From a virus, in IMG/VR virus record IMGVR_UViG_3300032235_000482, positions 1 through 20,151 of that record: a stretch of DNA of 20,151 nt. One strand, given 5' to 3'. The translations under genes and the position numbers were made by a program. Position 1 is the first letter of the stretch. Every line of letters begins with the position of its first letter. This document shows, piece after piece, positions 9,291-19,705 of the stretch. A model generated the notes under the pieces. The model was not told the DNA's origin. It made no database searches and worked only from the letters and a program-made list of their open reading frames with translations.

Positions 9291-10273
9291 TTCCTCATTT
9301 CTTCCGCTACCTTACGTGCATAAAGTTCCAAAGGAACCCCAAGCCGCTTGGCGAGTTCGACCTGTGTTCTTGTCAGCACGATCTTTTTAGGCGCTGTGCT
9401 GCGAGTCGCAGGTGCGACGATGTTCGACTTTTTTGGAGGAGTAGGCGCGTCCTCGGTTTTCTCACTCTTCCCGGACTCGAATACATCGGGGAAGCGAGCC
9501 CGCATTTCCGTGTCGATCGCTTTGTAGTAATCGTCACTTCCAGCGGTTGTTCCATTCTCAACCAGTTCCTGATGAAAGCCAAGGGCGTAGGCTGTCATCC
9601 GTTTGTTGCTGCCCCACCACGGATTGCGGTCTTGCCACGCGCGTAGTTTTGGGTCCAGCTCAACCGATTGAGGTTGTGGAGTGGGTTGTACCGCAGTTTC
9701 TTCCTCCTGTAAAGGGGTAGGCTTGAAACTATTTACACGCTCGGCTTTGAGCTTCGCGGCGGTCAGTTCTTCTTGGGCGGCCACCAGTGCATCCGAATCA
9801 CCGGCCTCGTAGGCAGCTTTGTAGGCGCTACGGGCTTTTTCGATGTCGTTTGCAGCGACCAGTTTGGCCTGCTCAATGTAAGCAGACTGGCCTTCGGAGA
9901 GGGTGCCCTTGAGCTTTTTGTTCTCTTCGACCAGCTGCTGGGCCAGACGCAGAGCCTCTTCACGCTCACGCTGGGCAGCTTCTTTGGCCCGGCGCTCTTC
10001 GTGGTAGCCCTTTTGAACCTGCTTGATCCGTGAGCGCACGCTCAAGTCGTACTTCTCAAGCTCATCGTCCGACAGGCTCTCGGGTGGCGGAGTTTTCATC
10101 GGCTCACGGCCGCGATCTTTCTCCGGGGTGTCGTCAATGACTTCGATCTCGGGCTTGTCGGCCTCAACGACCTCAATCTGCTCTTCGACCTCTACGACAG
10201 AGCCGCCCTTGCGGGCGTTTTCTTTGGCTTCCTTTTCGTCAGGAAACTCGAACTCAACTTGTTCCAGTGCCAT
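9287..10273 (-). CDS. Head scaffolding protein
   Basis: 328 residues, ATG 10271-10273 with AAGGAG about six bases upstream. The first 75 residues are very acidic (EVEEQIEVVEADKPEIEVID). Residues about 80-185 form a long charged coiled coil (RSRIKQVQKGYHEERRAKEA, then AAQREREEALRLAQQLVEEN). A Pro/Gln linker follows, then a small helical region with DRNPWWGSNKRMTAYALGFHQEL and a basic C-terminal helix (LAKRLGVPLELYARKVAEEMRK). Acidic N-terminus, coiled coil and a basic capsid-binding C-terminal helix are the hallmarks of tailed-phage scaffolds. The gene stands between portal and capsid, as expected. It acts inside the procapsid and leaves before or during packaging. Confidence 0.85.
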   Translation of the reverse strand: MALEQVEFEFPDEKEAKENARKGGSVVEVEEQIEVVEADKPEIEVIDDTPEKDRGREPMKTPPPESLSDDELEKYDLSVRSRIKQVQKGYHEERRAKEAAQREREEALRLAQQLVEENKKLKGTLSEGQSAYIEQAKLVAANDIEKARSAYKAAYEAGDSDALVAAQEELTAAKLKAERVNSFKPTPLQEEETAVQPTPQPQSVELDPKLRAWQDRNPWWGSNKRMTAYALGFHQELVENGTTAGSDDYYKAIDTEMRARFPDVFESGKSEKTEDAPTPPKKSNIVAPATRSTAPKKIVLTRTQVELAKRLGVPLELYARKVAEEMRK

Positions 10274-10284
10274 GATGCAGCTCC

Positions 10285-10683
10285 TTATGCACGCGTGATG
10301 CCGCGTGGGTCTTGGACAACAGCTTCCACGGAGTCGTCATTGATGATGCGGAACTCTTTGCCGTGGATTTTGATGCGCGTGCCAGTGTTTGGCCGCACCA
10401 AGACGAAATCACCTACCTTGCAGCTGGGGCCACCGGGGAAGCGCTTTTCGTCTTTGTAAGCGTCCGGCCCGACTTTCACGACAAACAATACGGGCGACAA
10501 CACTTCTTCAAAGTGCATCGTCTGGCCAGCTTTAATCAGCCCGCTTTCGTATTCTTCGTCAATCTCCGGGAGAACGCACAGGAGGTGGTAGGTCGCAGGG
10601 TCGGGAATCTGGCGGGCTTTCTCCTCAGCGGATTTGTTGAGGATGCCCGACAGGTCGACTGCCTGCGTGTCAAATTGAGTCAT
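10285..10683 (-). CDS. GroES-like co-chaperonin
   Basis: 132 residues, ATG 10681-10683 with AAAGGAA about six bases upstream. After a 30-residue N-terminal extension the protein follows the GroES fold order: HLLCVLPEIDEEYESGLI (strand plus the position of the first core), a probable mobile loop in KAGQTMHFEEVLSPV, LFVVKVGPDAY, then CKVGDFVLVRPNTGTRIKI (GroES K-x-GD-x-V) and the closing FRIINDDSVEAVVQDP (like the GroES E-x-I-x-A-V-V). Phage co-chaperonins such as T4 gp31 work with host GroEL to fold the capsid protein, and this gene lies in the head operon before scaffold. Identification is from fold pattern and is not certain. Confidence 0.7.
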   Translation of the reverse strand: MTQFDTQAVDLSGILNKSAEEKARQIPDPATYHLLCVLPEIDEEYESGLIKAGQTMHFEEVLSPVLFVVKVGPDAYKDEKRFPGGPSCKVGDFVLVRPNTGTRIKIHGKEFRIINDDSVEAVVQDPRGITRA

Positions 10684-10870
10684 CGTGTTCCTTTACTCGT
10701 CGCAAGAGGTCGTTTATTTCGCGCTGTGCGGTCAACAGACCCCGGATAACGCCGCACAGGTTCTGGTACTCAGCGTAGTCTTTCGCTACGCCTTGCGCCA
10801 AACTCTCTTCTACCGATTTCAATTCTTCCTGCAGCTTGCCCCGCAGGTAGTCAAGTACTTGGGTGTCCAT
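10670..10870 (-). CDS. Small helical conserved phage protein, 66 aa
   Basis: The start is the ATG 10868-10870, sharing one base with the portal TGA (10870-10872) and preceded by AAAGGTGAG; a GTG three bases earlier is also possible. The protein is mostly helix: MDTQVLDYLRGKLQEELKSV, then AKDYAEYQNLCGVIRGLLTAQREINDLLRRV. The EYQNLCGVIRGL-xx-A-x-x-x-I-x-DLL block is frequent in tiny proteins just after portal genes in aquatic phages. Its last 14 bases overlap the start of the GroES-like gene. Function unknown. Confidence 0.7.
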   Translation of the reverse strand: MDTQVLDYLRGKLQEELKSVEESLAQGVAKDYAEYQNLCGVIRGLLTAQREINDLLRRVKEHDDSI

Positions 10871-13278
10871 CACTCACCTTTCTTGGCCGGTTGGCCCTTG
10901 GTTTTGGCGATGTCGATGCCCATGCGCATGCCTTCACGCTCTTGCTGGGCGTCGAGCTGATCTGCTTTAAACGCAGCGTCGATCTGCATTTGCTTCTCTT
11001 TGAGCTCCAGCTCGTCTGCGCGGGCAGCGGCGTCGATGGCAAGCTTCTTCTCTTTGAGCTCCAGCTCCTTGGCCTTGATCTGCAACTCCTGCTGTTGCAT
11101 CTGCACCACAGGGTCCTGCTGCATCTGCTGGGCCTGCTCTTGAGCAGCTTTGGCTTGGTTCTCGGCCAGCACTTGCTGAGCGGCTTGGGCCATCATGGAC
11201 GACAGCGCCAGCTCCACCTGTGGAGGCAGGTTCTCGCCCTCGGGTGGGAGGGTCACGCCCATCTGCTGCTCGATGCGTTGGCGGTAGGCGTAGGCGGTGT
11301 GCTCGGCGATGTGGGCCATCATGGCGGACATCATGGCTTGGGCCTGTGGGTTCTGGCCGACCAGCTTCATCATCTCGGGGTCTTGCGACGCGGACATGTG
11401 CACCTGAATGTGGGCGGCGTGGTCTTGGTACTGGAACGCCTTGACCGGCTTCATGTTCAGGATGTCCATGTTCTCGCTGACGGGGTCGCGGGGCTTCATG
11501 TCGTCGTCGATGGGCACGAGCTTGTCAGCGTTCTTGATGCCCAGCACCTCGATCATCTGGCGGTGCAGCTGGGGCAGGTCATAAATCTGAGGTGCGCCTT
11601 GGCTGAGCTGGATCACAGCTTGGTACTGCATGATCCGTTGGGCCATCGTGGAGCTGTTGGGGTCCGACACGGGGATCACGTCCACCATGTCGTAGTCCTT
11701 CTTAAGCGCCATGCGGCTGCCGGAGGCAGGCTCGAACGAATACGCATCTGGGGCGTGGTCGCGGATGATGCCCTTGAGGAGCTTGAACTCCTGCTTCATC
11801 GAGTAGTGCACACGCGCCTGCACGGCCGACATGGTCTTGAGCTGGCGCTCCAGCAGGGCCAGCGTGGTACCCACCGGAGCATTCGCACCCATATCGCTGA
11901 CCTGCATGTCGGCGATTGAGCCCAGACGGCGGGCCTCCATGGTGATTTTCTCCAGCAGCCCGGCCAGCACTTGGCTTGGCTCTTTGTAGGGCAGCGGCAT
12001 GATGTTGTCACGCACGGTGCCGCTGGTCACGTCCACGTCACGGAACTCACCCGGAGCGATCGGGGTGTCGTCGCCCTTGATCCGCAGACCACGGGACTTC
12101 AGACCGCCGGGCAGGTTGGAGAGAGTGCCTGCGTCCACCAACTGACGGATGATCGACGTGCCAGCCCGGGCGTAGCCACCGATCAGGTGGATGTAGCCGA
12201 TGCCGTACGCGCCAAACCCTGTGATGTAGTCGTACTGTACGAAGTGATCGCGCTTTATGTGCGTCTTGGTGCCTTCTTCCCAGTTACGGTAGATGGCCAG
12301 CACTTTGTTTGTGCCACGGTCGATGGTGATGATGTAGGGCAGGGCCAGACCGTCTTTGTTCTCAAACCCGGGCAGGTCGTACTCGATCTGCGACTCAAAC
12401 AACTGGTAGCGGTTGTCTTCCGTCAGGGTATAGCCTTGGTCTTCTGCCTTTTTCTTCTCGATGTCGGAGAAGAACGTCACGGGCTCGCCCAAGTCCACGT
12501 CGCGGTAGAACCCACTGACCTGCAGGCGCTTCAAGTCGTTCTCGCTCTTGCGCAGCACATGGGTCGCGCGCTCTGCGTCACGCACGCCGCTACAGCCCCA
12601 CGGCAGGATCACATCTTCTGCCGGGATAAACATGGCCACCTGACGGTTCTTGCCCGTGTCAAAGTAGACCTTTTTGAACGCGCAACCGGCCAAGCCCAGA
12701 TTGAACAGCATGCGTTCGTGCTCGGTGCGGTACTCAGGCATCTGCTCGGTCAAGCGCCAGTTCATGTCGTCGCGCACGCGCTCCGCAGCTTCTTCCTTCA
12801 GGCGGTCGATCGCACCCACGATCTCTGTCTTGACTGGGCCAGCGGCCGGGAAAGTCTCGATGATCGTTTCGCTCTGGAACCGGACAGCCGCCTCGGTCAG
12901 CAAGGTGCTGAACACACCACAAGCGCCGTCCCACGGCTCGGTGCGCTCTTCGTAGCGCATGCCCAGCACTTCCAAGCCCTTGACGTAGGTCTCCACCCAG
13001 TCTTTGCGTGACGTGATGTCGGCCTCAACCAACGCCACGATGTCGCCCGCGATCTTCTGCAGCTCGCCCTCGTCCATGAAGTCCGCAAGGTTGGCGTCGA
13101 ACGGGATGTCGTCCGGGGTTTCGGCCTCGGGCATCAAGTCGATCTCCAAGCCGCCCACGCCGATTTTCACGTCGTCGGGGTTCTCAATCTCGATCTCAAT
13201 CGCCGGAGTGTCGTCCAGTGCGATACCGTCGAGGTCCAAGCCCGTAGGGGCACCGCCAATACCGGGAACCATGTTCAT
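10870..13278 (-). CDS. Portal protein, P22/SU10-like
   Basis: 802 residues, ATG at 13276-13278 preceded by AAGGA. A flexible acidic N-terminus (about 1-75) leads into the portal body: KDWVETYVKGLEVLGMRYE, then EPWDGACGVFSTLLTEAAVRFQSETI and a DMNWRLTEQM helical wing. The region around residues 380-420 (IHLIGGYARAGTSIIRQLVDAGTLSNLPGG) and GTVRDNIMPLPYKEPSQVL followed by LLALLE-type helices match the clip and stem of P22-like portals. The C-terminal 150 residues are a Gln/Ala/Met-rich coiled coil (QMQQDPVVQMQQQELQ), like the long barrel of P22 portals. It forms the twelve-subunit channel for DNA entry and works with the terminase encoded just upstream. Length is in the range of this class. Confidence 0.92.
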   Translation of the reverse strand: MNMVPGIGGAPTGLDLDGIALDDTPAIEIEIENPDDVKIGVGGLEIDLMPEAETPDDIPFDANLADFMDEGELQKIAGDIVALVEADITSRKDWVETYVKGLEVLGMRYEERTEPWDGACGVFSTLLTEAAVRFQSETIIETFPAAGPVKTEIVGAIDRLKEEAAERVRDDMNWRLTEQMPEYRTEHERMLFNLGLAGCAFKKVYFDTGKNRQVAMFIPAEDVILPWGCSGVRDAERATHVLRKSENDLKRLQVSGFYRDVDLGEPVTFFSDIEKKKAEDQGYTLTEDNRYQLFESQIEYDLPGFENKDGLALPYIITIDRGTNKVLAIYRNWEEGTKTHIKRDHFVQYDYITGFGAYGIGYIHLIGGYARAGTSIIRQLVDAGTLSNLPGGLKSRGLRIKGDDTPIAPGEFRDVDVTSGTVRDNIMPLPYKEPSQVLAGLLEKITMEARRLGSIADMQVSDMGANAPVGTTLALLERQLKTMSAVQARVHYSMKQEFKLLKGIIRDHAPDAYSFEPASGSRMALKKDYDMVDVIPVSDPNSSTMAQRIMQYQAVIQLSQGAPQIYDLPQLHRQMIEVLGIKNADKLVPIDDDMKPRDPVSENMDILNMKPVKAFQYQDHAAHIQVHMSASQDPEMMKLVGQNPQAQAMMSAMMAHIAEHTAYAYRQRIEQQMGVTLPPEGENLPPQVELALSSMMAQAAQQVLAENQAKAAQEQAQQMQQDPVVQMQQQELQIKAKELELKEKKLAIDAAARADELELKEKQMQIDAAFKADQLDAQQEREGMRMGIDIAKTKGQPAKKGE

Positions 13279-15350: not shown

Positions 15351-15380
15351 GGAGGGGTTCGCGCTCCTGAAGATGGGCGG

Positions 15381-15386
15381 ATTATA
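15381..15386 (-). promoter_or_regulatory. -10 box of a candidate late promoter for the terminase operon
   Basis: On the minus strand a perfect TATAAT (within GCATATATAATCC) lies 30 bases upstream of the terS start. At a 17-base spacing the -35 position reads CACATA, which is poor, so a phage activator would probably be needed. Confidence 0.4.
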
Positions 15387-15462
15387 TATGCACTCTAACT
15401 TTGTATGTGGTATTTTTTTCTGGGGGCTTTTATTTTTGCACCGGGGGGTGTTCCTATATTGA

Positions 15463-15594
15463 GGGGGTGGGGGTCGGCTGTGGGGTATTTATATTACTGG
15501 ATGTTTGTAAAGTGGTGTTGGAGGATACGGAGCTCAGCGTATAGCGGACGGGCGGAGTCCCAGAACCAGTTTGGGGGGTGGGGGTACGGTGGGG
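15463..15594 (+). repeat. Two G-tract repeats (possible G-quadruplex)
   Basis: GGGGGTGGGGGT followed by a GG and a final GGGG occurs at 15463-15485, and the closely similar GGGGGGTGGGGGTACGGTGGGG pattern at 15573-15594. Each block has three long G-tracts and one GG, with short loops, compatible with a G-quadruplex on the plus strand. They lie in the divergent control region. Confidence 0.45.
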
Positions 15595-15713: not shown

Positions 15714-16256
15714 ATGACTGCAACTAAATTGATCTCTGTCTCTTTTGATTCCAATGCTGCCGCCATTGGCCGCGCATATTCTGGCTTTGATAAAGCATTC
15801 GGCAAATTGACCGGCGTGGTCAATCGGGAAATGCAAGCGTTCGTTGACCAGTGGTTTCTGGCCAATGGTAAGGGCGAGGCCTCGGTCAAGGCCATGGGCG
15901 CGGCCATCCGGGATTCGCAAGTCGTTCTCGACTTGGCGGCCACTGGCGCGATGGAGAAGAAGACGTTCACCGAGTACGCTCAGGGGGCCATGCGTGCGCT
16001 GCATTACGGTGTCCCATTCTCGGCCGACTTGAAAAACAATGCCGATTATGCGCTCCCATGGGGCAAGGCTGGCAAGGGTGGCGCGACTGCCAAGTCAGGC
16101 AAAGTCACAAGCACAAGTCGCACCGATCTGGACAAAACCCTGAGCAAAGCACTGGCGCAAGCCCGCGCCCTTGGGTTGACTGAATTCGCGGCCGATGTTC
16201 TTGACTTGTGCCTTGATTCATTGGACGGATTCAAAGAGACAGTTTTGGACAAGTAA
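15714..16256 (+). CDS. Conserved phage early protein of unknown function, 180 aa
   Basis: The ATG at 15714-15716 is chosen because TAAGGA lies seven bases upstream and the promoter at 15639 would be inside the gene if the longer frame from 15405 were used. The protein begins MTATKLISVSFDSNAAAIGR and is largely helical, with a Trp/Phe-containing middle (REMQAFVDQWFLANGKGEAS, RDSQVVLDLAATGAMEKKTFTEYAQGAMRALHYG), a basic Gly/Lys linker (WGKAGKGGATAKSGKVTSTS) and a helical C-terminus (ALGLTEFAADVLDLCLDSLDGF). No catalytic or HTH motif is evident. It has its own promoter with palindrome half-sites on both sides and a terminator after it, so it is a single controlled unit. Confidence 0.8.
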   Translation: MTATKLISVSFDSNAAAIGRAYSGFDKAFGKLTGVVNREMQAFVDQWFLANGKGEASVKAMGAAIRDSQVVLDLAATGAMEKKTFTEYAQGAMRALHYGVPFSADLKNNADYALPWGKAGKGGATAKSGKVTSTSRTDLDKTLSKALAQARALGLTEFAADVLDLCLDSLDGFKETVLDK

Positions 16257-16262
16257 ACCCCG

Positions 16263-16276
16263 GGGGCCTCGGCCCC
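16263..16276 (+). other. GC hairpin after the 180-aa gene
   Basis: GGGGCC-TC-GGCCCC forms a six-pair stem nine bases after the gene's start of 3' flank. It precedes the T-tailed terminator and may stabilise the message end. Confidence 0.5.
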
Positions 16277-16281
16277 TTACA

Positions 16282-16293
16282 TCTAAACTTAGC
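16282..16293. repeat. Degenerate palindrome copy (TCTAAACTTAGC)
   Basis: Two mismatches from TCTAAGCTTAGA. It lies between the two 3' hairpins and overlaps the start of the terminator stem. Confidence 0.35.
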
Positions 16294-16318
16294 TGCCCTC
16301 CGGGGCGGCTTTTCTTTT
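16292..16318 (+). terminator. Intrinsic terminator after the 180-aa gene
   Basis: GCTGCCC-TCCG-GGGCGGC is a seven-pair stem including one G-U pair, followed by TTTTCTTTT. This ends the transcript of the gene at 15714-16256 on the plus strand. Confidence 0.8.
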
Positions 16319-16433
16319 GCCCGTGCACTTGTACCCTGCGTTGCCTTAGCACGCAGGAAACGTCATAGTAGTCTGACCGCAAGGGAGTACGCGCGCGAGT
16401 GAGCCGTGTCCGCACGGGAGCCGCAGGGGCTGA

Positions 16434-16445
16434 TCTAAGCTTAGA
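16434..16445. repeat. Palindrome TCTAAGCTTAGA, copy 1
   Basis: Exact 12-bp palindrome, 14 bp with flanking A and T. It is immediately followed by the inverted-repeat arm 16447-16465. Confidence 0.8.
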
Positions 16446-16446
16446 T

Positions 16447-16465
16447 GGCGTTACCGATGTAACGA
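16447..16465 (+). repeat. Left arm of a 19-bp inverted repeat
   Basis: GGCGTTACCGATGTAACGA matches the reverse complement of 16864-16882 at 18 of 19 positions. The arm is itself a small inverted repeat, CGTTAC-CGAT-GTAACG. Confidence 0.75.
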
Positions 16466-16563
16466 ATGTAGCAGGATGGTAACTTTTGCAGCGTAACACC
16501 CCGCTCAAAAAAATATGAGTACCAAAGTAATGAAACAAAACTGTAAATGCCCTAATAATAAAT

Positions 16564-16592
16564 AAAAAAAAAAAAAAAAATTATTATATATA
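16564..16592 (+). repeat. A17 run and AT-rich tract
   Basis: Seventeen consecutive A bases (16564-16580) are followed by TTATTATATATA. This is the most AT-rich spot of the window and a candidate DNA-unwinding element. Length of the A-run may be subject to sequencing error. Confidence 0.6.
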
Positions 16593-16643
16593 GGAGTGTA
16601 ACGCACGTAACAGCCTTTTATACTATACGCTGGCAAAAACGTG

Positions 16644-16655
16644 TCTAAGCTTAGA
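16644..16655. repeat. Palindrome TCTAAGCTTAGA, copy 2
   Basis: Exact copy, 210 bases after copy 1, on the other side of the A-tract and just before the C-rich hairpin. Confidence 0.8.
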
Positions 16656-16663
16656 TCACCACA

Positions 16664-16706
16664 CCCTCCCCCTCCCCCTCATGACTACGCAGGGGGGAGG
16701 GGGGGT
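16664..16706 (+). repeat. C-tract / G-tract imperfect hairpin
   Basis: C-rich CCCTCCCCCTCCCCCTC (16664-16680) and G-rich AGGGGGGAGGGGGGGT (16691-16706) are near-complementary around ATGACTACGC. There is no T-run after it, so it is not an ordinary terminator. Confidence 0.55.
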
Positions 16707-16763
16707 CAGCACACTTTGTCAAAAAGGGGTGTTTTTGGAAACGCTCATTATTTTATGCGCTAC

Positions 16764-16854
16764 GTTGGTTACAGCACCCCTCAACACCATATAATATCCC
16801 CGCAAACCCGCATGGTTAAGCCATTTCCACGTATCAGCCCATTTTGTAACCAAC
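16764..16854. repeat. 10-bp inverted repeat GTTGGTTACA / TGTAACCAAC
   Basis: GTTGGTTACA at 16764-16773 and its exact reverse complement at 16845-16854. It is nested inside the 19-bp inverted repeat pair and also contains the GTAAC word. Confidence 0.6.
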
Positions 16855-16863
16855 CCCCTCCTC

Positions 16864-16882
16864 TCGTAACATCGGTAACGCC
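16864..16882 (-). repeat. Right arm of the 19-bp inverted repeat
   Basis: TCGTAACATCGGTAACGCC, reverse complement of 16447-16465 with one mismatch, about 400 bases away. Confidence 0.75.
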
Positions 16883-16913
16883 GACCCCCCATTTCACAGG
16901 GTAAACCCCTACA

Positions 16914-16925
16914 TCTAAGCTTAGA
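16914..16925. repeat. Palindrome TCTAAGCTTAGA, copy 3
   Basis: Exact copy, flanked by A and T, 30 bases upstream of TATACT and 81 bases upstream of the HTH gene start; well placed for control of that gene. Confidence 0.8.
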
Positions 16926-16954
16926 TCAGCTCATTTTATTTGCTCTATATGCAC

Positions 16955-16960
16955 TATACT
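16955..16960 (+). promoter_or_regulatory. -10 box of a possible HTH-gene promoter
   Basis: TATACT lies 45 bases upstream of the start codon. The -35 position (CATTTT) is weak. Palindrome copy 3 lies just upstream at about -46 to -35, typical of a site used for activation or repression. Confidence 0.4.
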
Positions 16961-17005
16961 CGACGCCTACCCCCTCCCCCCACCAACGAAAGGACCCCCT
17001 CCCCC

Positions 17006-17416
17006 ATGACTGCCGCATTCGACATGACCATCCCCGAGCGCTTTGCTCAGGCCCTCTCCCCCCTCCACCCCGATGGAGCCCAGCATGCTGCTGCCGCAGC
17101 CCTGCGCTTGTATTTAGAACTTGGCAAACTCGGTGTGGATGCCTTGCAGTCCCGTGCCACGCATGAAGGGATGACACCAGCAGAGGTGATTCTGAACTTG
17201 CTGACGCACGTCAAGGGCGCAGCCCCTGCCGCTACTATGACACCTCGCCCCAAGGCTCGGACCAAACATGACAACGATGTGCGTGACCAACGCATTGCGC
17301 AGGAGTATTTTGACGGGGGCATTACCTATGCCCGTTTGGCGGTCAAGTATGACCTGTCGACCATTCGTGTGGCGCAGATCATTGCCAAGGCCCGTGCAGC
17401 ACAGCAACTCGTCTAA
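17006..17416 (+). CDS. Helix-turn-helix DNA-binding protein, putative phage regulator, 136 aa
   Basis: The ATG at 17006 is used because AAAGGA (16989-16994) precedes it, though with an 11-base C-rich gap; the longer frame from 16940 starts in promoter sequence. Residues 8-70 are helical and hydrophobic (ERFAQALSPLHPDGAQHAAA, LRLYLELGKLGVDALQ), suiting dimer formation. After a Pro/Lys linker, residues 93-126 (DQRIAQEYFDGGITYARLAV then KYDLSTIRVAQIIAKARA) fit a HTH of the Mor/sigma-region-4 type: G-x-TYA-x-LA-x-K-Y-x-LS-x-x-R-V-x-Q-I. Palindromes lie upstream, over its stop codon (TAA is part of TCTAAGGTTAGA) and downstream, so it may bind them and control itself. Target is inference. Confidence 0.7.
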   Translation: MTAAFDMTIPERFAQALSPLHPDGAQHAAAAALRLYLELGKLGVDALQSRATHEGMTPAEVILNLLTHVKGAAPAATMTPRPKARTKHDNDVRDQRIAQEYFDGGITYARLAVKYDLSTIRVAQIIAKARAAQQLV

Positions 17417-17423
17417 GGTTAGA
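17412..17423 (+). repeat. Palindrome variant TCTAAGGTTAGA, copy 4
   Basis: One base from the exact palindrome. It holds the TAA stop of the HTH gene and its AAGG is the ribosome site of the next gene (ATG at 17426, seven bases on). Confidence 0.75.
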
Positions 17424-17425
17424 TC

Positions 17426-17929
17426 ATGGAAATTACCACTGAAGCCCAAGCCACCAAGGTACGCACGGTGATGGCGGCGATGATTGCCAAACTGCAGGAC
17501 GCCAAGGCATCCGGGGACAAGGAGCAGGCCGCGCAGCTCAAGGCTCAATATACTACCCTGCAAACAGCCCTGCAGGATTACAAGGCGCGGGAACGCGAGA
17601 CCAAGGCCGAGCAGCGTGACATGATGCAGGCATACCGGGACATTGTGGCGGGGCTCAAGGACAATCTCAAGGAGCTGACGCAGGACCTCAAGGAGGCGCA
17701 GACCGAAGCCAATGCCATGCGGGAGCAGCTCAAGACGTCGCGCAAGACCATCGGGGACCTCAAGTTTGAAGTGGCTCGGTTGACGGACGAGAACCGCACG
17801 CTGCGCGCGCCACCCCCGGTGGCGGAATACCGCAAGGTCCAACTCATGCCGATGCCATCCACAATACCCTTCTCAGAAGAAGACATGCTGGCCGAGATCG
17901 ACGCCATCACAGGGGGTCGAAACACTTGA
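17426..17929 (+). CDS. Coiled-coil early protein of unknown function, 167 aa
   Basis: The ATG at 17426 is nine bases after the HTH gene stop, with the ribosome site inside a palindrome element. Residues about 10-128 form a nearly continuous Lys/Glu/Gln/Ala/Leu coiled coil (AAMIAKLQDAKASGDKEQAA, LKDNLKELTQDLKEAQTEAN, LKFEVARLTDENRTLRAPPP). The C-terminal 35 residues are acidic and Pro/Met-containing (LMPMPSTIPFSEEDMLAEID). There is no recognisable enzyme motif. Co-transcription with the HTH gene suggests a partner or accessory role in regulation, replication or DNA segregation. The stop lies within a promoter. Confidence 0.75.
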   Translation: MEITTEAQATKVRTVMAAMIAKLQDAKASGDKEQAAQLKAQYTTLQTALQDYKARERETKAEQRDMMQAYRDIVAGLKDNLKELTQDLKEAQTEANAMREQLKTSRKTIGDLKFEVARLTDENRTLRAPPPVAEYRKVQLMPMPSTIPFSEEDMLAEIDAITGGRNT

Positions 17930-17954
17930 CAAGTGACTAGTATTAGTATAGAAT
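17923..17954 (+). promoter_or_regulatory. Strong sigma70-like promoter with operator-like palindrome
   Basis: TTGACA (17926-17931), 17-base spacer, TAGAAT (17949-17954). The -35 box is embedded in the perfect odd palindrome CACTTG-A-CAAGTG (17923-17935), a natural repressor site. Transcription would begin near 17961 and run through a 520-base leader into the early operon. Confidence 0.75.
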
Positions 17955-18059
17955 AGAGTCATCGAGTGGGGCTTCGTGCTCTGCTCGGCGACCAGCCTTT
18001 CCTATGTGCGGTCATTCGTTCTTTAATAATTTATTTCCGTTAGGTTTAATGGAGTGTTG

Positions 18060-18071
18060 TCTAAGCTTAGA
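18060..18071. repeat. Palindrome TCTAAGCTTAGA, copy 5
   Basis: Exact copy, 14 bp with the flanking G and C. It lies about 100 bases downstream of the expected start of transcription from the 17926 promoter, the position of a roadblock (stoperator-like) site. Confidence 0.8.
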
Positions 18072-18267
18072 CGCTCTCCAACCGATCAAGCCGTCGCTGG
18101 TACTCAAGACCAGAAGCCGGGTAGGTATGCCAGTCATCCCTCCCCCCGGTGAAACGAGACGTTGGGTGTAGCCCCAGTATGTTGTGGCGTATGAAGTAGT
18201 GTGTATCGATGCAGCCCATAAGGTATGCGACACCGAAAAGTACAGCGACATGCAAAACGAGCGACAA
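18067..18267 (-). CDS. Doubtful small membrane protein, 66 aa, TTG start
   Basis: On the minus strand a 66-residue frame begins with TTG (only start available; no ribosome site) and ends at a TAA that forms part of palindrome copy 5. Residues 2-18 (SLVLHVAVLFGVAYLMGC) make a membrane span; the rest (GRDDWHTYPASGLEYQRRLDR) looks protein-like. It would run against the early transcript. Composition supports it, translation signals do not. Confidence 0.3.
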   Translation of the reverse strand: MSLVLHVAVLFGVAYLMGCIDTHYFIRHNILGLHPTSRFTGGRDDWHTYPASGLEYQRRLDRLESV

Positions 18268-18487: not shown

Positions 18488-18727
18488 ATGAGATTTGAAT
18501 GGTTTAAGCGTGACTTCCACCCGCAACATGTATGGGCACTGTACCTCATAAAGAACGGCCGCTTCGTCACGGACATGGGGACACTGACAAGACTGCCACG
18601 GGCGTGGCGAATCGTCGAGAACACCAGACACACCACACCAGACAAGTATTGGCTCGACGGCGATCTAAGCTTAGAAGATGCGCAACGTGCAGCCAAGCTG
18701 TTCCTGTGCGTGGGGAGACAGACATGA
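18488..18727 (+). CDS. Small early protein, 79 aa
   Basis: ATG 18488 with AAGGAG six bases upstream, the first gene of the rightward early operon. The protein begins MRFEWFKRDFHPQHVWALYL, continues IKNGRFVTDMGTLTRLPRAW and ends EDAQRAAKLFLCVGRQT; aromatic-rich and basic, with no known motif. Palindrome copy 6 lies within the gene and is read as GDLSLED. Its TGA overlaps the next ATG (ATGA). Function unknown; such aromatic-rich small proteins are usual among early genes that act on the host. Confidence 0.75.
   Translation: MRFEWFKRDFHPQHVWALYLIKNGRFVTDMGTLTRLPRAWRIVENTRHTTPDKYWLDGDLSLEDAQRAAKLFLCVGRQT
18664..18675. repeat. Palindrome TCTAAGCTTAGA, copy 6, inside a gene
   Basis: Exact copy within the coding sequence of the first early gene, where it encodes D-L-S-L-E. 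It shows that the element is kept even where codons constrain it. Confidence 0.8.
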
Positions 18728-19502: not shown

Positions 19503-19705
19503 AACACCTATGCGTGAAATGCCACGACAGCGTTGTGCCGCAAGCTCGGCGTCAGCTTGGGTATCTAACCTGTATGTCTTGTGGAGAGACAGCAGCATCT
19601 AAGGTTAGACACACCATCGCACCGATGCACAAGAGCAACTACATGCTGTTCACTGACCTGAACGATCTCAAAGGCATCAACAACAAGGGAGGGTTGCACC
19701 GATGA
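19499..19705 (+). CDS. Zinc-ribbon small phage protein, 68 aa
   Basis: ATG 19499 with AGGAG six bases upstream, overlapping the previous stop as ATGA. Cys pairs CVKC (5-8) and CMSC (25-28) separated by 16 residues make a likely zinc ribbon. After it comes the highly characteristic end HTIAPMHKSNYMLFTDLNDLKGINNKGG, which I recall from small proteins in many phages of aquatic bacteria. Palindrome copy 7 lies in the gene and encodes S-K-V-R. A role in binding nucleic acid or a host protein is plausible; none is established. Confidence 0.8.
   Translation: MKHLCVKCHDSVVPQARRQLGYLTCMSCGETAASKVRHTIAPMHKSNYMLFTDLNDLKGINNKGGLHR
19598..19609 (+). repeat. Palindrome variant TCTAAGGTTAGA, copy 7, inside a gene
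   Basis: Same sequence and orientation as the variant at 17412. It lies in the zinc-ribbon coding sequence and is the rightmost copy in the window. Confidence 0.75.

Follow-up and report, generated by a model that had tools for sequence, protein, structure and literature searches.

The analyzed window is a linear IMG/VR virus record of 20,151 bp. It is a phage fragment, and its minus strand carries the late genes of a tailed phage (TerL, portal and capsid). Based on TerL, the nearest named phages are the Pelagibacter phages HTVC027P and HTVC023P, Phage DSL-LC04 and phage 023Pt_psg01, with an identity of ~42-46%, and the phage is judged a distant relative of HTVC023P and DSL-LC04. The relatives that are closer than these named phages are environmental contigs only.

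A gene-free stretch of ~750 bases, whose location is conserved across dozens of related phages, separates orfX from the gene of a predicted DNA-binding protein with a helix-turn-helix (HTH) domain. It contains an array of GTAAC and GTTAC (GTWAC) words around an AT-rich core (Table 1). Upstream of the array, the block near CGTCATAGTAGTCTGACCG is also kept in relatives. The stretch had been described as lying between divergent transcription blocks. This is not the case, since orfX (ending at 16256) and the HTH gene (17006-17416) both point rightward; the rightward genes diverge from the leftward late genes at ~15350/15714, outside the gap. The DNA of the region has no match in the phage or plasmid collections, and neither orfX nor the HTH protein has a protein match among named phages. 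Rfam gave zero matches in the window and three relatives, and the scanned loci contain no tRNA genes.

Related contigs were gathered with TerL and TerS queries. Fifty-three distinct contigs of relatives reach the array region, and five relatives, 61-67 kb in length, are near-complete (G004, G006, G013, G014 and G015). The gene order of these five is collinear. The array is followed by the HTH gene, small early genes, PolA, a SNF2-type helicase and PrimPol+DUF927, the last three being encoded in the early half; the opposite strand then carries the structural genes back to TerL, TerS, orfX and the array. Breaks in these contigs fall at differing positions, which implies a circular map.

All repeats listed in the preliminary description are present in the window. 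The ten GTWAC words are located at 16450, 16459, 16479, 16493, 16598, 16607, 16768, 16846, 16866 and 16875. A first-order Markov model predicts a mean of 1.5 words for the region (sd 1.2), and 0 of 2000 simulations reached ten; the remainder of the window holds 17 GTAAC/GTTAC words in all. The 19-bp pair GGCGTTACCGATGTAACGA (16447-16465) and TCGTAACATCGGTAACGCC (16864-16882) has one mismatch, the 10-bp pair (16764-16773 and 16845-16854) is exact, and the A17 tract spans 16564-16580. Three TCTAAGCTTAGA palindromes are found at 16433-16446, 16643-16656 (13/14 match) and 16913-16926. An exact 19-bp outer pair (16429-16447 and 16912-16930), which contains the outer palindromes, was absent from that list.

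Table 1. Features of the gene-free region and of its right flank (window coordinates; z, folding z-score).
Feature	Position	Strand	Remark
Gene-free region, whole module	16257-17005		Between orfX and the HTH gene; based on ORFs and homologous layout in relatives
Terminator-like hairpin closing orfX	16291-16310	+	
Block CGTCATAGTAGTCTGACCG, then G-rich GAGY-type stretch	16361-16379	+	Near-identical in most relatives
Left bracket palindrome ATCTAAGCTTAGAT	16433-16446		
Left GTWAC words (16450, 16459, 16479, 16493)	16450-16497		
A17 purine tract + TTATTATATATA, candidate unwinding element	16552-16601		Least stable 50 bp of the window
Word pair GTAACGCACGTAAC, 9-bp spacing, right of the AT core	16598-16611	+	
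Middle palindrome GTCTAAGCTTAGAT	16643-16656		
GC-rich stem-loop	16665-16709		z -2.55 (window), -4.19 (L004), -0.74 (L007)
GTTAC word overlapping the -35 of the promoter-like site 16768-16795	16768-16772		
Right GTWAC words (16846, 16866, 16875)	16846-16879		
Right bracket palindrome ATCTAAGCTTAGAT	16913-16926		
Gene for a 136-aa DNA-binding protein (predicted)	17006-17416	+	N-terminal strand-helix-helix; C-terminal HTH of Mor/sigma70-r4/KorA type
Dispersed palindrome copy TCTAAGGTTAGA	17412-17423	+	Spans the HTH stop codon
Dispersed palindrome copy, leader of early operon	18060-18071		
Dispersed palindrome copy	18664-18675		
Dispersed palindrome copy TCTAAGGTTAGA	19598-19609	+	

The array is conserved among the relatives. 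Counted as present at seven or more words per 550 bp, it is kept in 47 of the 53 distinct contigs (7-17 words per 550 bp), where it is positioned 770-2000 nt upstream of TerS and before the HTH gene. It represents the GTWAC maximum of every array-bearing locus larger than 6 kb, and usually no other counting window rises above half its count. The words are spaced by 8 bp (110 cases), 9 bp (51), 14 bp (44) and 20-21 bp (66) across relatives, and 67 of the 110 8-bp cases are GTTACnnnGTAAC dyads. The window's own subgroup has direct or inverted word pairs at a 9-bp spacing, like GTAACGCACGTAAC. Words, spacing and stem-loop persist despite a changed intervening sequence, as is visible in the direct 9-bp pairs of the window versus the 8-bp dyads of G006-G009. 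G014 (L190) and L008 retain the purine-tract/AT core and the palindromes, but at most about three GTWAC words of the array. The first 50 kb of HTVC023P, DSL-LC04 and 023Pt_psg01, the first 25 kb of HTVC027P and Pseudomonas phage Rollin were found to have neither a similar GTWAC peak at the equivalent position nor any dispersed palindrome of the kinds described below.

The core, located between the left and middle words, is built of a purine tract followed by an AT-rich part: A17-TTATTATATATA in the window and (GA)n-(TA)n in other relatives. Among the five near-complete relatives, it is the genome-wide least stable 50 bp in G004, G013 and G015 and ranks second in G006 and G014, the core of G014 still being AT-rich despite the word loss. 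To the right of the second word pair lies a long stem-loop, whose folding is kept while its sequence varies by lineage (mean z -1.67, with 17 of 38 below -1.5). The stems of L004 and L007, for example, are unlike that of the window in sequence, and the stem-loop is still kept.

The palindromes constitute a layer separate from the GTWAC array, with one class per lineage, positioned before early genes and framing the array. The class of the window, TCTAAnnTTAGA, is present in seven copies with exact arms, and several relatives carry at least 10, almost all of them in the early half. In other relatives a different palindrome takes the same role. Overall, 13 classes were identified, with symmetric cores of 11-14 bp: TCTAAnnTTAGA, TTTAAnnTTAAA, TATAAnnTTATA, TATATnnATATA, TATACnnGTATA, TTTAACnnGTTAAA, TCTAAnnnTTAGA, CGTAAnnTTACG, CTTAGnCTAAG, TATAACnGTTATA, TTTAACnGTTAAA, CTTAAnnTTAAG and TGCTAAnTTAGCA. 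Irrespective of the class, 30 of 31 tested contigs have a palindrome bordering the array on its left side, and 23 of the 31 have one on its right side. Of the 147 copies located elsewhere, 46% are followed within a few bases by a Shine-Dalgarno (SD)-like sequence and a start codon, compared to 16% of random same-strand positions, and a frequent context is aact-[palindrome]-actttt-GGAG-ATG. None of the window's five copies beyond the array passes the strict SD and start count; at 17412, however, only three bases separate the end of the copy from the start codon that follows. Folding of the palindromes as RNA hairpins is disfavored by a mean energy of only -2.0 kcal/mol with flanks, so that a site acting at the DNA level is preferred. 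Left of the array in G008 (16500-17500) and G009 (10050-11050), a very short ORF is located between two palindrome copies; its start context (acaactATGAC) is of the same kind as that of the HTH gene.

The HTH protein and its relatives share an N-terminal strand-proline-helix-helix pattern. This part is probably ribbon-helix-helix-like; the structural model contains both helices but no strand. The C-terminal HTH has a recognition helix, S-x-x-R-[VI]-x-Q-[IL], that is common to the relatives. Structurally, it most resembles Mu Mor/C, sigma region 4 and KorA, all with non-significant E-values (for KorA, 40-41 residues at 0.9 Å rmsd, E 0.49). Reading of the palindrome by this helix was considered and is disfavored. 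The SEIR(V/I)HQI helix is found with five palindrome classes (TCTAA, TATAA, CTTAA, TATAT and TATAC) and does not covary with the class, so palindrome binding by the adjacent protein, the one candidate repressor compared, is unsupported. The protein may read the conserved GTWAC boxes, or neither of the two elements. A tandem pair of HTH paralogues is present downstream of the array in L073, L034, L143, L147, L149, L150 and L151, with a variable helix in the first and a nearly constant SLIR[VI]HQI in the second. The next gene in the window (17426-17929) encodes a 167-aa coiled-coil-like protein of no clear family.

Further downstream, positions 17926-18110 of the window contain a promoter-like site, an rrn-like boxA (CGTTCTTTAATAATTTA, ~18016), a palindrome copy and a conserved CCGYCGCTG...CAGAAGC element. 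This order is shared by 22 of 28 testable relatives, and the segment resembles an antitermination leader of the nut type, which would serve the main early operon. Its promoter-like site (TTGACA-17-TAGAAT, 17926-17954) is the strongest such site.

Taken together, the region may constitute the theta-type replication origin of the phage, its GTWAC boxes being bound by an initiator and framed by lineage-specific operators. Judged from sequence, we give this reading an even chance. It is favored over a simple promoter region because of the single array, the stability minimum, the regular spacing, the structure-conserved stem-loop and the PrimPol-helicase replisome. A phage initiator would bind the paired boxes that flank the purine-tract/AT core and thereby open it. 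The stem-loop and the boxes to its right would help to load the primase-helicase, i.e., the PrimPol+DUF927 protein, which is conserved in relatives. The palindromes at the edges and before early genes would be operators of a phage regulator, coupling or insulating origin firing and early transcription. What the sequences show is the anatomy of the region, its conservation, the word spacing, the instability of the core, the stem-loop and the bracketing by palindromes, whereas the start of replication and the identity of the two binders are inferred; the HTH protein and PrimPol+DUF927 are the candidate GTWAC-binding initiators.

An origin had already been proposed in the preliminary description, and the conserved single array around an easily melted core speaks for that proposal. 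Its further argument, nested symmetry around the AT-rich core, holds only in part: the repeats exist, but the symmetry results mainly from separable, lineage-specific palindromes that also stand before early genes. The cumulative GC skew, suggested there as a check, has its minimum not at the array but 4-7 kb away in four of the five near-complete relatives, and at an unrelated position in G004. It tracks transcription and gene direction; given these positions, it neither confirms nor excludes an origin. The word-poor relatives count against an origin. Gene content was examined for one of the two (G014 and L008): G014 keeps its replication genes despite the word loss, and its PrimPol is 71% identical to that of G015. 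Moreover, the purine-tract/AT core is of low complexity and unstable by composition. A pRN1-like origin 3' of the PrimPol gene was considered as well; a stable fold is present there in several genomes, but it is at least partly conserved coding sequence, and this candidate was rejected.

A control region, the main rival to an origin, would be equally compatible with a sequence made of short words that has a promoter-like site and a regulator gene next to it. The adjacent HTH protein would then bind the GTWAC boxes cooperatively, autoregulate its gene and set early transcription, with the AT core as a promoter or UP-like element and no start of replication. The gene of this two-part DNA-binding protein lies immediately downstream of the array, its commonest recognition helix, S(E/L)IR(V/I)HQI, is common to many array-bearing lineages, and the promoter-like site GTTACA-16-TATAAT (16768-16795) overlaps a GTWAC box. 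In addition, the 8-9 bp box spacing, direct or inverted, resembles the sites of ribbon-helix-helix repressors, like omega and ParG, which recognize series of short boxes irrespective of their orientation (PMC5016525). However, an autoregulated gene of 136 aa needs neither 10-17 boxes over 340-510 bp nor a genome-wide stability minimum and a conserved stem-loop, and the strongest promoter-like site lies far outside the array. We regard such a control center as a serious possibility, albeit an unlikely one. The box spacing, the freedom of orientation and the neighboring gene for a ribbon-helix-helix-like protein would also suit a partition or centromere-like site, at which protein and array form a segregation or clustering complex comparable to parS/parH with omega or ParG. 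This is improbable, as no ParA or ParM partner was recognized among the proteins tested near the array, where the next gene encodes the coiled-coil protein. Likewise, neither an integrase nor a lysogeny gene turned up among the tested proteins, so a need for stable plasmid maintenance is not evident.

A packaging (pac) site recognized by TerS, whose gene is 0.8-2 kb away, would agree with the proximity of terS and terL in all loci and with the differing breaks of the near-complete contigs, which fit circular permutation and headful packaging. Ends of related contigs also accumulate immediately upstream of terS, with 21 of 78 lying no more than 200 nt away (window ~15351-15550 and relatives); this is perhaps a packaging terminus, or a divergence point at which assembly breaks. 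Nevertheless, that cluster is found beside terS and not at the array, known pac sites are located within or adjoining terS, and TerS is well conserved even with the array lost (L190/G014). We therefore see little prospect for a pac site. Finally, phage intergenic regions are often AT-rich and short repeats drift, and the region could be a low-complexity promoter region without special function, retained through common descent. The conservation pattern disfavors this very improbable explanation, as the sequence between the words varies, for example from A17 to (GA)n, and yet the words, their spacing and the stem-loop are retained.

For the palindromes, we suggest a speculative and rather doubtful function as binding sites of a phage-encoded silencer. 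Its specificity would switch together at ~10 sites per genome between close relatives. Acting from sites that frame the origin and precede early genes, the silencer of a resident phage would shut off replication and early transcription in co-infecting phages of the homotypic kind and spare heterotypic ones. In phages that appear to be lytic, this would amount to an immunity-like device or one of origin incompatibility.

With this region, a defined candidate origin that can be tested is available for a phage group that is widespread, uncultured and equipped with a PrimPol-type replisome. The palindrome set has been replaced wholesale at least a dozen times among phages with terminases that are mostly 81-89% identical. 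This forms a natural series in which to follow the joint change in specificity of a regulator and its full set of dispersed sites, and it bears on the question of immunity-like systems being retained by lytic phages.

Iteron origins with an AT-rich unwinding element, like those of the lambda O type, P4 crr/ori and the iteron plasmids, have iterons of 17-22 bp. The array shares with them the clustered short words flanking an AT-rich core of low stability. It differs by its 5-bp boxes paired at 8-9 bp and by the lack of an identified Rep/O homologue, both initiation and initiator binding being putative. In the Sulfolobus PrimPol-helicase plasmid pRN1, a structured, sequence-variable stem-loop is an experimentally required cis element, and its authors proposed a structure-conserved stem-loop as cis element in some phages too, phage BIP-1 being comparable (PMC4234260). 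As in pRN1 and BIP-1, there is a replication protein with primase-polymerase-like and helicase-like parts, a large stem-loop conserved in structure and not in sequence as putative origin, and a transcriptional repressor gene in the replicon. The pRN1 stem-loop, in contrast, is located directly 3' of its replication gene and does not depend on iterons, whereas the one described here lies inside a box array, ~20-30 kb from the PrimPol gene and beside a regulator gene.

The palindromes are of the same style as the KorA operator of IncP plasmids, OA GTTTAGCTAAAC, a 12-bp palindrome (PMC2680271), and the HTH model resembles KorA, though not significantly by E-value (0.49). Unlike in the KorA system, the recognition helix does not change with the palindrome class and there is no KorB partner. 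Cluster A mycobacteriophages, which are temperate, have stoperators, 20-30 dispersed asymmetric 13-bp repressor sites, mostly in one orientation relative to transcription and with a consensus diverging between heteroimmune relatives (PMC6550527). Dispersal, predominant orientation and divergence of the consensus among relatives are all shared by the palindromes. These are symmetric, however, with no cognate repressor recognized and no lysogeny genes seen among the tested proteins. The SAS/ESAS elements of Cluster K mycobacteriophages are inverted repeats upstream of start sites, with a consensus that differs between subclusters (PMC3203893). Similarly, the palindromes are dispersed over the non-structural half just upstream of starts, with a lineage-dependent consensus; they are 11-14 bp long instead of having 17-bp imperfect arms, fall into many more classes and also frame an origin-like array. 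By analogy, the palindromes appear to behave most like the ESAS of Cluster K, and like stoperators.
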